Notes under the pieces: model-generated
What the model was told of the DNA's origin: nothing
Databases searched by the model: none
The model's input: the letters and a program-made list of their open reading frames with translations, nothing else
Shown here: piece after piece, positions 2,793-7,943 of the stretch
Layout: each line of letters opens with the position of its first letter
How positions within the stretch are numbered: the stretch's first letter is position 1
Source of the DNA: a virus
IMG/VR virus record: IMGVR_UViG_3300022220_000011
Coordinates: 1 to 38,587 of that record
Length of the DNA: 38,587 nucleotides
Direction: 5' to 3' (one strand)
Program-made: the position numbers and the translations under genes

Positions 2793-4556
2793 ATGTCCGT
2801 GGACGCATCTGCCATTGCCCGAGTCGTCGGGATTGAAACGACGTACGAAGATCTCCGCGCCGGCCAGGTCGTATTTCTGCCGCAGCGCTTGCTCCTGATC
2901 GCACAGGGTTCGAGCGCCAGTAGCTACAGCACGACGAAGTTCACCGCGGAGAGTGCACTCCAGGTCGGCAACATTGCCGGGTTCGGGTCGCCCGCACATC
3001 TCTGCATGAAGGAATTCTACCCCGACAATGGGGACGGGATCGGGACCATTCAAGTCGACGTCTGCCTTCTCGAGGACGCTGGCGGAAGCTCTGCAGCCGT
3101 CGGAGACGTCACGCCATCGGGGACGGCGAGCATTGCGGCCGGCTACAAAGCGCGGGTTTCTGGCATCCTCGGACAGAATTTCACGATCCCCGCCGGAGCG
3201 ATCGACGTGACCGACACTTGTCGGAAGATCGGGCAAAGCATCGCAGCGGTCGCATTCATGCCGCTCGACATCTCCTATACCTACGGGACCGTCGCGGCAG
3301 TGCCGGACGCCGGAAACACGGGGGACGGGACGGTAACTGCCTTGTCTGCCGATACTGGCCTGCCGGGTGACTGGCGGCTCGTCTGCAATACAGCAGGCGT
3401 GGACGATGGGATCTTCACCTTGACGGATCCCGAGGGGAGCGTCATTTCGACGACACTCGCGGCTACTCTCACGCCAGGCACGGACGTCGACATCGGAGGG
3501 ATCCAGTTCACCTTGATGGCAGGGGCGGCCGACTACATCGTAGGCGATGGGTTCACGATCACCGTTCCCGCGACGGACGTGCAAGCAACGTCGAAGTGGC
3601 AGGGAGAATCAGCGAACGACATCCTAATCGAGATCATCGACACACTCGGAGATCTAACGTTTGCGATCACCCAGCCGACGGGTGGCACTGGGAACCCGAC
3701 CGTCGACGCGGCGCTCGCGCAAGTTGGCGGGATCTGGAACACCATGGGTTTGAACGCCCTGAACATCGAGGACACGACCGCGCTCGACGCTTACGACGCG
3801 TTCGGCGAGGGCCGATGGGGCGAGCTCGTCCGGAAGCCGATCGTGTTCTTCACCGGCGTCGCATATGCCAGCCGAACGGCGGCGACGGCGATCTCCTCGA
3901 CGCGCACGACTGACCGCACGAATGCCCAGCTCGTCGGAGTCGGGTCGCCGAATCTGCCCTGCGTCATCGCAGCACGGCAGCTCGCGCGCATCGTCAAGCT
4001 CGCGAACAACAATCCGCCGCACGATTACGGAAGCCAACGGGCGAATGGTCTCATCCCTGGTACCGACGGCGAGCAGTGGGACTATCCTGCACGAGACGCG
4101 GCCGTCAAGGCAGGGAGCTCGACGATCGAGATCAAGGGCGGCGTGATCAACGTCTCCGACGTCGTCACGTTCTATGCTCCAGCCGGGGACCCGTCGCCGG
4201 CGTATCGGTACGTCGTCGACATCGTGAAATTGCAAAATTGCATTTTCAACACGGATCTGATCTTCGCAAATACGGATTGGGACGGCGCTCCGTTGATCCC
4301 CGATGATCAGGCGACCGTTAACCCTGACGCGCGCAAGCCGTCGGGAGCGAAGGCGGACCTCTCGAAGATGCTCGATGGACTCGGCGCGCAAGCGATCATC
4401 AGTGATCCGAAGGCCGCAAAGAAGTCGATCGTCGCGAACATCAGCTCGAGCAATCCGAAACGGCTCGACACCGAAGTCACGTTTGCACTGGCAGGCAACG
4501 CGAACATCATCAGCCACACCCAGAAGTTCGGATTCTTCTTCGGGCCGAGCGAGTAA
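2793..4556 (+). CDS. Contractile tail sheath protein (Mu gpL-like)
   Basis: At 587 residues it lies in the expected slot before the tail tube. The C-terminal half carries sheath-like features: FGEGRWGELVRKPIVFFTGV (about 332-351), NLPCVIAARQLARIVKLANN, a long strand-rich stretch with GGVINVSDVVTFYAP, then VVDIVKLQNCIFN and a C-terminal VTFALAGNANIISHTQKFGFFF strand typical of sheath handshake segments. Residues of about 190-265 form an extra Gly/Thr/Asp-rich beta domain (TLTPGTDVDIGGIQFTL) not needed for the core, probably surface-exposed. The start is preceded by GAGAGGA. The product polymerises around the tube and contracts on infection. Confidence 0.88.
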   Translation: MSVDASAIARVVGIETTYEDLRAGQVVFLPQRLLLIAQGSSASSYSTTKFTAESALQVGNIAGFGSPAHLCMKEFYPDNGDGIGTIQVDVCLLEDAGGSSAAVGDVTPSGTASIAAGYKARVSGILGQNFTIPAGAIDVTDTCRKIGQSIAAVAFMPLDISYTYGTVAAVPDAGNTGDGTVTALSADTGLPGDWRLVCNTAGVDDGIFTLTDPEGSVISTTLAATLTPGTDVDIGGIQFTLMAGAADYIVGDGFTITVPATDVQATSKWQGESANDILIEIIDTLGDLTFAITQPTGGTGNPTVDAALAQVGGIWNTMGLNALNIEDTTALDAYDAFGEGRWGELVRKPIVFFTGVAYASRTAATAISSTRTTDRTNAQLVGVGSPNLPCVIAARQLARIVKLANNNPPHDYGSQRANGLIPGTDGEQWDYPARDAAVKAGSSTIEIKGGVINVSDVVTFYAPAGDPSPAYRYVVDIVKLQNCIFNTDLIFANTDWDGAPLIPDDQATVNPDARKPSGAKADLSKMLDGLGAQAIISDPKAAKKSIVANISSSNPKRLDTEVTFALAGNANIISHTQKFGFFFGPSE

Positions 4557-4607: not shown

Positions 4608-4640
4608 ATGGCGGGGACGGGATCGTCCTGTCCCCGCCAT
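4608..4640 (+). promoter_or_regulatory. Long perfect hairpin between sheath and tube genes
   Basis: ATGGCGGGGA (4608-4617) pairs perfectly with TCCCCGCCAT (4631-4640), and the inner CGGG/TCCTG bases extend the stem to about 14 pairs with one G-U. The loop is about 5 nt. The following bases are CAGTATAGGT, so there is no U-tract. It sits 16 nt upstream of the tail tube start, where it could act as an RNase barrier or processing site, or as a weak transcription attenuator that sets the sheath:tube ratio. Confidence 0.65.
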
Positions 4641-4655
4641 CAGTATAGGTGCACC

Positions 4656-5039
4656 ATGCCAGCAGTCGGCGGATCAATTCAGGCAGTTTCACTTCGAGGG
4701 CGTCTTCTCCCCGTCGCCGCGGACGCGGACGGGACGCGGGACATCGGAGGCTTCGCGAACGAAGTCCAGAGCAACGGTGACGGCTCCGCGCGCATCGTCA
4801 AAACGCGCAAGCCATGGATCATCGGTGGCCTGACGCTCGAGGTCGACGACGACCGGGCGGATCAGGAGTTCCTCCAAGAGATCGCCGATTCGAACGATTA
4901 CGTGTCCATCACGATCGAGCTCGTCTCTGGCACGGTCTACATGGGCGAAGGAACGATCACCGACAATATCGAATTCTCGACGCAGAATAGCACGGCGGGT
5001 GTCACGCTCTCCGGGCCTCGGAATCTCGAGCAACAGTAG
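4656..5039 (+). CDS. Tail tube protein (Mu gpM-like)
   Basis: This 127-residue protein is the right size and position (sheath, tube, chaperone, tape measure) for the myovirus tail tube, which forms the inner conduit for DNA. The sequence alternates short strands: an N-terminal GSIQAVSLRGRLLPV, GGLTLEVDDDRADQEFLQEIADSNDYVSITIEL in the middle, and a final YMGEGTITDNIEFSTQNSTAGVTLSG that resembles Tail_tube family ends. I chose ATG 4656 because an upstream in-frame ATG (4608) lies inside the hairpin stem and would add an implausible Cys/Arg leader. The ribosome-binding site (AGGTG) is weak. Confidence 0.82.
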   Translation: MPAVGGSIQAVSLRGRLLPVAADADGTRDIGGFANEVQSNGDGSARIVKTRKPWIIGGLTLEVDDDRADQEFLQEIADSNDYVSITIELVSGTVYMGEGTITDNIEFSTQNSTAGVTLSGPRNLEQQ

Positions 5040-5047
5040 GAGGAAGC

Positions 5048-5476
5048 ATGTCAGAAGGTGGACCGCTTGACGAGGACAAGATGGATGGGGAATCTGCAGA
5101 AGCCGAATTTCAGCGGTTCGCAGACGAGTTCGAACTGGACATCGACGAGAAGGGAATGGACGACGAGGATCGCCAGGCGTTTCAAGCGTCCAAAAAGGTG
5201 TTCATCCGGGAACTGAAACGAGGCTCCATCGTCGTCGACGAGAGGGGCGCAGCGACGTACACGACGCGCTTCGAAACGAATCCGTCCCCGGTCGTCTTCC
5301 ATGAGCCGACGGGCGCGACTTTCATGGCGAGCGACCAGAAGAAACGGGGACACGACGCTGCGAAAATGTACGCCATGATCGCAGACATGACGCGGCAGAA
5401 CATCCAGCGGTTTTCGAAGATGCCGCGCCGTGATTTGAAGGTCGTCGAATCGGTGGCCCTTCTGTTTTTGGGCTGA
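5048..5476 (+). CDS. Tail assembly chaperone, short (zero-frame) form
   Basis: A 142-residue acidic, helical protein lies between tail tube and tape measure, the conserved place of the G / GT-type (Mu gp41-type) chaperones that coat the tape measure during tail assembly. N-terminal residues 1-45 are strongly acidic; the middle holds AATYTTRFETNPSPVVFHEP; the C-terminal AKMYAMIADMTRQNIQRFSKM is helical. It ends ...VALLFLG, with the last two sense codons inside a TTTGGGC slippery heptamer just before TGA (5474-5476). The start has an AGGAGGAAGC ribosome-binding site. Confidence 0.8.
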   Translation: MSEGGPLDEDKMDGESAEAEFQRFADEFELDIDEKGMDDEDRQAFQASKKVFIRELKRGSIVVDERGAATYTTRFETNPSPVVFHEPTGATFMASDQKKRGHDAAKMYAMIADMTRQNIQRFSKMPRRDLKVVESVALLFLG

Positions 5477-5712
5477 ACGTGTTGACGCCTCTCGTCCGCG
5501 GAGGCGTCGACGCATTCTTGAACAAAGAGGAGGGAGGCCATGGGCTCGTCAGGGTATATGGGGAGATGCTACTCCAGATCCTGCACGACTACCCCGGAGG
5601 CCTCCCGAATGCGCGGACGCTCACCATGACCGAGATCCGATTTTTCTACGATGGGATCCGGCCTGACTTGTATGAAGGCACGCGGCCAAAGCCGACACCG
5701 AAACTCCGATAA
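5048..5712 (+). CDS. Tail assembly chaperone, long form by -1 frameshift
   Basis: If ribosomes slip back one base at TTTGGGC (5467-5473), translation bypasses the TGA and continues L-N-V-L-T-P-L-V-R-G to the TAA at 5710-5712, giving about 221 residues. The downstream part, readable alone from GTG 5479 as 77 residues, contains GEMLLQILHDYPGGLP and MTEIRFFYDGIRPDL, typical of the T domain that binds the tape measure. There is no Shine-Dalgarno sequence before GTG 5479, which favours the fusion over independent initiation. The TAA overlaps the tape measure ATG (TAATG). Confidence 0.75.
5467..5473 (+). promoter_or_regulatory. Programmed -1 ribosomal frameshift site TTTGGGC
   Basis: In the chaperone frame the bases read T-TTG-GGC followed directly by TGA, which fits the X-XXY-YYZ heptamer pattern (TTT GGG C). 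The -1 frame is open upstream and continues 79 codons downstream. Such sites are conserved in tail chaperone genes even where sequence is not. Slippage efficiency is unknown, and the shifted pairings (Leu and Gly tRNAs) involve third-position mismatches. Confidence 0.75.
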
Positions 5713-7943
5713 TGGCAGGACGATTCACAGTCAGCGCCGTATTCAAGGCGATTGACAGATTCTCCCGACCGCTCGCGAAAATGCAGCGGAGGACGCGGCG
5801 CTTTGTCGCTGGCTTCCGTCGCGGACTCAAGCGGATCAACGGAGCTCTGAACGGCGTCCTGGCAGGAGTGAAACGGATCGGCCTGGCCGCGGGCGTCGCG
5901 GGCGCCGCGGTACTTGCCGTCGCGAAGAACATCGCTGGAGTCGGGGCAGGCTTCGAGCAGGCGATCACGGACGTTGGCGCCGTCAGCCTGAAAACGAGAG
6001 AGGAGATAGCGAACCTCGAAGCCGCGGCGAAACAGCTCGGAGCGACGACGAAATTCACCGCGACCGAAGTCGCGGCGGGAATGGAGATCATGGCCAAGGC
6101 GGGGTTCGCGGAAAGCGATATCCTCGTCGGTATCGAAGCGAACTTGAGTGCGGCCGCGGCATCCGGGATGGAACTCGCGGAGGTGTCCGACCATGTGACC
6201 AAGGTGTTAAAGGGCATGGGCCTGGATACGAAGGAGGCAGCGCGAGTCGCGGACGTTTTGGCATTGGCGTCCTCGCGGACGAACAGCACGATCGGGACTC
6301 TGGGTGAGTCCATGCGAAATGTGTCGGCGACAGCACGCAAGCTGGGGATCCCGCTCGAGGAAGTCGTTGCGAGCGTCGCACTGCTCCAGGACGTTGGGCT
6401 AGATGCATCCGTGGCCGGCTCCGCGATGAATACGATGCTCACGAAGTTGTCGAAACCGACGGCGGAGATCACGCGGCAAATGAAGGAGGCGAAGGTTAGC
6501 TTCCAGGATGCAGAAGGGAACATGCTCCCGCTCCGCGAAGTGCTTGCCAATATGTCGAAGGTAGCGAAGGAAAGCGGCGGCAATATGGCCCAGATGGCCT
6601 TCTTTGCTGACCTCGTCGGTCTCCGAGGTCAGAAGGCCGCAGTGAATCTACAGGACCTCCTCATGTCTGGCCGAATCGACGAGCTTACCGAAGCGCTCGA
6701 GAAAGCCGGCGGCTCCGCGAAGAAAATGGCGGATCTGCGCATGGACACCCTGACGGGTGATCTCACTCTGCTCGAGTCGGCCGTCGACGCCGTCAAGGTG
6801 AGAGTGTTCGATCTGAAGGGCGGCCCGCTCCGTGGCGTCGTCAAGGGGATGAAGGACTGGGTCGACAAGAACGGAGAGTTCCAGGCCCTCATGATGGCGG
6901 GCCACATTCAGAAAATCACCGAAGCGCTTCCGGAGATCGTCAAGTGGCTCAAGCGGATCGGGATTGCCGTCGCTGCCATCTGGGCGTTGAACCTAGCGAT
7001 CAAGGTCGTAAACATCACGCTCGCGATTTACGAAGGGGCGGCCGCGGCGGCGAGCGTCGTTCAAAAAATCCTGACGTCGGACGTCGTGAAGAACTCCGCG
7101 GCCTGGGTGTGGAACACGCTGAAGATCATCGCGAATACCGTTGCATCCTGGGCGGTGACGGCGGCGAAATACGCGCAGGCTGCGGCGACGAAGCTCGCAA
7201 CCCTGATGACGAAACGTCTCACGCTCGCGATGATCGCTCACACTCTGAAGACGTGGCTCTCGACGGCGGCAACTTGGGCCTATCAGACCGCGCAGCTCGC
7301 CGCGAACAAAGTGATCAAAGCGGCCCGTGGTCTCGTGAAGGCTCTCATGGGCATCGAGATCGCCGCGACGGCGAAGCGTTGGCTGAGCGTGACTGCGACA
7401 TGGGCGCAGAACACGGCGCAGCTCGCTTACAATGTCACGACGCGCGCGGCTGCCAAGGCGATGCTCGCCTACAAGACCGCCGTCATGGGCGCGGGAGCGG
7501 CGTCCGCCGCGGCCTCGGGCGGATTCTTGGCCGTGATGATTCCGCTCGTCGCCATCGCGGCTGCCATCGGTGCGATTTACCTGGCGTTGAAGCAAATCCG
7601 CTCCCTCGAGAAAGAGACGGGCGGCCTCGGGATCGTCGGTACGATCGGAGAGATGTGGAAGAAAGGAACCCTCGATCCATTCAAGGCCGTCGACGCCGTG
7701 ATGAACGAGCGAGCGCGGGCCGCTCAGAGACAGCGGGAGAAGTCGGGCGGGGGTGCTAAGACCGCGTCGAGGAAGCCCGCCGTCCAACCTACCGGGACCG
7801 GTACCGGTGAACGCCACACGGCGGAGGCAGAGGGGCCGACCGCGACTCTGCTGATCAAAGATGAGACGGGCCGGGCAGTCGTGCCGAAACAACCACGCCG
7901 CGGCCTCCGGCTCAACGTCGAGCCGACCGGAGCGTTCGTATGA
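5712..7943 (+). CDS. Tail tape measure protein
   Basis: The product is 743 residues. The N-terminus is basic (KMQRRTRRFVAGFRRGLKR), followed by a hydrophobic helix. Residues of about 85-310 match the phage tape measure core family: FEQAITDVGAVSLKTREEI, TKFTATEVAAGMEIMAKAGF, and later LGIPLEEVVASVALL and a GLRGQKAAVNLQDL ending. Residues of about 410-640 are long hydrophobic helices with imperfect Trp-rich repeats (LSTAATWAYQTAQLAANK and LSVTATWAQNTAQLAYNV). The C-terminus is a charged, flexible tail. Using the usual 0.15 nm per residue, it predicts a tail of roughly 110 nm. It overlaps the next gene by ATGA. Confidence 0.93.
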   Translation: MAGRFTVSAVFKAIDRFSRPLAKMQRRTRRFVAGFRRGLKRINGALNGVLAGVKRIGLAAGVAGAAVLAVAKNIAGVGAGFEQAITDVGAVSLKTREEIANLEAAAKQLGATTKFTATEVAAGMEIMAKAGFAESDILVGIEANLSAAAASGMELAEVSDHVTKVLKGMGLDTKEAARVADVLALASSRTNSTIGTLGESMRNVSATARKLGIPLEEVVASVALLQDVGLDASVAGSAMNTMLTKLSKPTAEITRQMKEAKVSFQDAEGNMLPLREVLANMSKVAKESGGNMAQMAFFADLVGLRGQKAAVNLQDLLMSGRIDELTEALEKAGGSAKKMADLRMDTLTGDLTLLESAVDAVKVRVFDLKGGPLRGVVKGMKDWVDKNGEFQALMMAGHIQKITEALPEIVKWLKRIGIAVAAIWALNLAIKVVNITLAIYEGAAAAASVVQKILTSDVVKNSAAWVWNTLKIIANTVASWAVTAAKYAQAAATKLATLMTKRLTLAMIAHTLKTWLSTAATWAYQTAQLAANKVIKAARGLVKALMGIEIAATAKRWLSVTATWAQNTAQLAYNVTTRAAAKAMLAYKTAVMGAGAASAAASGGFLAVMIPLVAIAAAIGAIYLALKQIRSLEKETGGLGIVGTIGEMWKKGTLDPFKAVDAVMNERARAAQRQREKSGGGAKTASRKPAVQPTGTGTGERHTAEAEGPTATLLIKDETGRAVVPKQPRRGLRLNVEPTGAFV

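Follow-up and report, generated by a model that had tools for sequence, protein, structure and literature searches.

The phage studied here very probably makes two versions of its tail assembly chaperone through programmed -1 frameshifting just before the chaperone stop codon. The analysed DNA (hereafter the window) is an entire IMG/VR virus record of 38,587 bases with 64% G+C, originating from an uncultivated phage. In many tailed phages, two chaperone versions arise because ribosomes slip back by one base. Programmed -1 frameshifting is strongly supported in the present case, since the homologous downstream part is found in the -1 frame and overlaps the stop of the chaperone gene in all 91 junctions compared. 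The explanation that fits best, and which we consider likely, is a -1 frameshift at the heptamer T_TTG_GGC (5467-5473, plus strand as all features below), aided by an RNA hairpin, that gives rise to a fusion of the chaperone with a downstream T-like part beside the unshifted chaperone of 142 aa.

According to profile matches in the window, the genes are arranged in the order sheath, tube, chaperone, T part and tape measure. Upstream of the chaperone reside the genes for the major capsid protein, head closure, the tail sheath (2793-4556; phrog_165) and the tail tube (4608-5039; phrog_4699), while those for the tape measure protein (5712-7943) and the baseplate hub are located downstream. Presence of the tail sheath among the upstream genes assigns the phage to those with a contractile tail. 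The work of Xu, Hendrix and Duda (2004) is said to be the type reference for tail assembly chaperones with programmed frameshift, and two hallmarks of this type recur here: the gene lies between tube (4608-5039) and tape measure (from 5712), a placement also given by the earlier note, and the overlapping second ORF is conserved without a start of its own. The tail tube gene probably starts at ATG 4656 rather than at 4608, as alignments with most relatives begin at about residue 9-17, and position 4608 is not preceded by a Shine-Dalgarno (SD) sequence. The ATG of the tape measure gene overlaps the stop codon of the -1 part (TAATG, 5710-5714) and lacks an SD in the window (0.1 kcal/mol vs. a median of -5.8 in relatives), so that its translation may rely on ribosomes coming out of the shifted frame. 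As an SD is present in most relatives, we do not claim that tape measure translation is generally coupled to the shifted frame.

We infer that the ORF at 5048-5476 acts as tail assembly chaperone. Its start pairs with the anti-SD at -10.2 kcal/mol, and its product matches phrog_4648 (E 6.8e-22), a family of unknown function. The match to PF10109, which comprises the tail assembly chaperones E, 41 and 14, is weak (17.1 bits, below the Pfam cut-off of 25), and six of 14 relatives match this family at E <= 0.01 (best E 8.7e-7). An AlphaFold model of the protein (pLDDT 94) shows similarity, at modest E-values (7.5e-3 and 1.7e-2), to predicted phage proteins whose annotations read tail assembly chaperone and tape measure chaperone, and a structure search with this model retrieved no matching solved fold.

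The chaperone ORF ends with CTG TTT TTG GGC TGA. The earlier note had described an in-phase X_XXY_YYZ heptamer directly preceding TGA and a -1 frame open on both sides. Both observations hold: T_TTG_GGC (zero-frame codons TTG GGC, -1 codons TTT GGG) is followed immediately by the TGA at 5474-5476, and the -1 frame has no stop between 5434 and 5709, ending at the stop codon 5710-5712. In the 21 genes of the window that were examined, in-phase X_XXY_YYZ sequences occur at 12 of 7774 codon positions. T_TTG_GGC is the sole canonical heptamer among the 12 positions of the overlap (5434-5476; P about 0.018), and no other one in these genes directly precedes a stop codon. The bare sequence TTTGGGC is present three times in the window vs. 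2.7 expected, which alone is not significant; therefore, position and relatives had to bear the argument. Searching the available literature library for slippage on TTTGGGC returned unrelated papers only and no published case. The window contains no tRNA genes, ruling out a phage-borne tRNA as explanation for the slip.

Relatives were collected by tblastn, with hits to the chaperone in 26 phage records and to the downstream part in 12. After identical junctions had been removed, phages, IMG/VR and two MAG contigs yielded the 91 distinct ones. T_TTT_TTN is present in 60 of them, mostly as CTT TTT TTG. Among the 42 junctions encoding a chaperone that ends with LFL[GA], CTT is retained in 40, TTT in 41 and TTG in 40 cases, even though TTG accounts for 7% of the Leu codons in this group (TTT for about a third of the Phe codons). 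This retention indicates strong synonymous constraint on a slip that equals the P2 heptamer TTTTTTG. The majority of the family thus carries the P2-type heptamer, whereas the window has GTTTTTG instead: its codons CTG TTT TTG (5462-5470) differ by one base, G5464, which breaks the T-run. G5464 recurs in another contig of this virus (two mismatches across the shared 5.2 kb), making a sequencing error at this position unlikely.

Conservation of the heptamer in related phages had been proposed as a check, and TTTGGGC is not conserved. It appears in 13 of 91 junctions, in 12 of them solely as the end of TTTTTTGGGC, and is the only canonical heptamer of a junction just once, in the window. As TTTGGGC is contained in TTTTTTGGGC, the heptamer of the window may be a remnant. 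Judged by these junctions it is best seen as a derived site in one virus, namely what is left of two overlapping sites after one was lost. It would stay by default once the T-run was lost, and its presence is therefore no independent proof of use. The earlier note was right about the kind of event, a frameshift that joins chaperone and downstream part, and mistaken about the signal, as the slip conserved in the family is T_TTT_TTG. TAG serves as the chaperone stop in 59 of the 91 junctions, probably because the overlapping -1 frame codes for Leu-Val at the stop (CTA GTx).

A canonical heptamer is absent from 28 of the 91 junctions, and yet the -1 arrangement is kept. Twenty of these encode a chaperone ending with LL[MT]D, mostly by CTT TTA ATG GAY TAG (L096, reading CTT TTA ATG GAC TAG, as well as L107, L057, L114, L119 and others). 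TTA is retained in 18 of the 20, even in loci with ~60% G+C where it makes up about 6% of the Leu codons, hinting at a non-canonical slip in this group. CTT TTT ATT or CTT TTT ATG is found at the slip position, again with the arrangement kept, in the Vibrio phages VP16C, CKB-S1, VP16T and 1.009.O (L008, L009, L010 and L012, respectively) and in L020, L080, L090 and L111; there, TTT in the P-site is able to re-pair, whereas the A-site codon is not. Published data likewise contain many phage chaperone frameshifts without an XXXYYYZ motif (PRFect, PMC10885494).

The -1 part (5473-5712; 79 aa plus stop) has homologs in all relatives. In close pairs, its changes at codon positions 1, 2 and 3 of the -1 frame number 39, 22 and 157, respectively, showing that it evolves as a protein in this frame, and in the window the coding score of the region is positive in the -1 frame only. 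Searches of Pfam, PHROGs and NCBIfam gave no meaningful match, and a structure search matched no solved fold. Public annotations of L008, L010, L016, L017, L018 and L024 begin the downstream part at internal codons, resulting in short hypothetical proteins; other records omit it altogether, and the fused product is missing.

Downstream of the slip, a 13-bp stem (5479-5491/5501-5513) enclosing a loop region (5492-5500) is predicted, separated from the heptamer by a 5-nt spacer, i.e. a 3' structure a few bases downstream as in canonical -1 signals and a putative frameshift stimulator. The hairpin has a folding energy of -27.7 kcal/mol (z -5.03; 0 of 200 shuffles as good), the strongest z-score of the 91 junctions, and ranks among the lowest 0.16% of the 45-nt windows of the record. 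When the -1 peptide was recoded synonymously, 23 of 3000 variants folded equally well. Structure just 3' of the stop is enriched family-wide, with a mean z of -1.16 vs. -0.22 at control positions, and helices of 7 bp or more that start at +2 to +9 occur in 19 of 91 junctions vs. 51 of 728 controls, relatives not being independent in either comparison. We assume that the hairpin would stimulate the frameshift. It was absent from the signal as the earlier note described it, as were alternative slips at G_TTT_TTG and at G_GGC followed by the stop.

According to the mechanism we propose, the majority of ribosomes would read TTT TTG GGC TGA and terminate, generating the 142-aa chaperone. A minority would pause at the hairpin, perhaps also at the stop codon, upon which tRNA-Leu may re-pair from TTG to TTT and tRNA-Gly from GGC to GGG, one base back. 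The shifted ribosomes would go on with CTG AAC GTG up to position 5709, completing a fusion protein of 221 aa. The site probably descends from the TTTTTTGGGC of the family: G at 5464 presumably destroyed T_TTT_TTG, so that T_TTG_GGC would now be the heptamer in use.

In a FastTree tree of the fused proteins, the window groups with two further loci, L003 and L037. The T-run is lost in all three, which read T_TTG_GGC (window), CTA TTC CTG GGC TAG (L003) and G_GGG_GGG (L037). In each of them the stop is followed by a strong stem (-27.7 kcal/mol in the window, -29.5 kcal/mol in L003 and -24.8 kcal/mol in L037). L003, the nearest sister, keeps the arrangement and possesses neither heptamer, which counts against the TTTGGGC slip. 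In L003, eight extra codons opening the -1 part sit inside the strong stem-loop (1560-1619). These data suggest that the clade swapped the strong slip for other slips plus structure. Together with the 28 junctions devoid of a heptamer, they also allow the tentative idea, possible although doubtful, that the frameshift has left the two-tRNA heptamer: single peptidyl-tRNA slips beside the stop (G_GGN, G_GAY) or on U_UUN could take its place, with a hairpin adding efficiency in some lineages, such that the -1 outcome would be conserved while the slip chemistry turns over.

The frameshift could be real and nonetheless occur one codon upstream, at the degenerate ancestral site G_TTT_TTG, where with aid of the hairpin tRNA-Phe would re-pair on GTT and tRNA-Leu on TTT. 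This sequence sits exactly where 60 of 91 relatives have T_TTT_TTN, and it retains both TTT and TTG although these codons are rare in the genome (14% of Phe and 9% of Leu codons, respectively). There is precedent for slippage despite a mismatch at the first base, namely G_UUA of equine arteritis virus (PMC5009743). However, tRNA-Phe in the P-site would face a first-position mismatch and T_TTG_GGC re-pairs better, for which reason we regard slippage at the upstream site as unlikely. We give still less credence to a slip by one tRNA, i.e. peptidyl-tRNA-Gly moving from GGC to GGG with the stop codon in the A-site, stimulated by the hairpin and possibly common to the window, L003 and L037. None of these sisters retains the T-run, xxG GGN stop plus a strong stem is common to all of them, and a nearby stop codon is known to affect -1 shifting in pea enation mosaic virus (PMC5009743). 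However, only L003 would need such a slip, given that L037 has the canonical G_GGG_GGG and the window T_TTG_GGC, and no tested precedent was found in this analysis. Mass spectrometry alone is unable to separate these events, because the fusion peptide FLG-LNVLTPL is identical for T_TTG_GGC, G_TTT_TTG and G_GGC-stop.

Alternatively, no frameshift would be required if a downstream ORF of 77 aa was translated from GTG 5479-5481, two bases past the TGA, by internal initiation or by termination-reinitiation. In both the window and L003, a GTG lies close to where the conserved part begins. However, GTG 5479 has almost no pairing with the anti-SD (-2.4 kcal/mol), in agreement with the earlier note, which had stated that the downstream part is devoid of an SD, and it is buried at the base of the 13-bp stem. 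Moreover, 54 of 91 relatives have no ATG, GTG or TTG in the -1 frame up to +15 of the stop, rendering independent initiation very improbable. Hardly credible at all are two further readings: that the fusion stems from slippage during transcription of the T tract, or that the site has decayed and ceased to function. The homopolymer tract, which is at least two Ts shorter than the run of relatives, would be in line with either, but five Ts are short for poly-T slippage, which was described for runs above 8 (PMC3711429), and the T part of the window is still open with a coding-like composition. Hence, a -1 slip of two tRNAs at T_TTG_GGC, aided by the hairpin, is the reading we prefer.

The tail chaperone -1 frameshift is a known kind of recoding, and the present case is very probably a real and ordinary one, distinguished by its uncommon heptamer and by a hairpin of unusual strength. 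The family represents a natural experiment on slippery sites, in which the same -1 fusion is preserved throughout and the heptamer varies by lineage, comprising T_TTT_TTG, T_TTG_GGC, G_GGG_GGN and the non-canonical CTT TTA ATG. The window, combining a heptamer whose second half contains G with a strong hairpin, would be useful to gauge how far structure compensates a weaker slip. The fusion product has been missed in most public records of related phages: the Vibrio phages VP16T/C, the Shewanella phages SppYZU01 and SFCi1 and their relatives encode direct homologs of both parts in the same -1 arrangement; most of these are deposited as hypothetical proteins, with no CDS joining the two. SppYZU01 carries TTTTTTGGGC, whereas VP16 carries CTT TTT ATT and no canonical heptamer.

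Among the known systems, P2 E/E+E' is alike in its position after sheath and tube and before the tape measure and in shifting by -1 towards the end of the chaperone gene. Its slip T_TTT_TTG, at GGT TTT TTG TCG, is the majority slip of the window's family (PMC3091744). In contrast to the window, where T_TTG_GGC directly precedes the stop, P2 slips several codons ahead of it, and no stimulatory structure was found at the slip of P2 and P2-like phages (PMC3091744), whereas the window has a strong hairpin. The T parts of P2 and Mu show no similarity to that of the window by profile. Lambda gpG/gpGT is similar in that a chaperone and a minority -1 fusion are encoded between the major tail protein and the tape measure (PMC5009743); the window differs from lambda by its contractile tail and its heptamer. 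Mu gp41 shares the gene order, the myovirus type and a weak profile similarity of the chaperone, but shifts by -2 (annotated as verified), whereas the family of the window shifts by -1.
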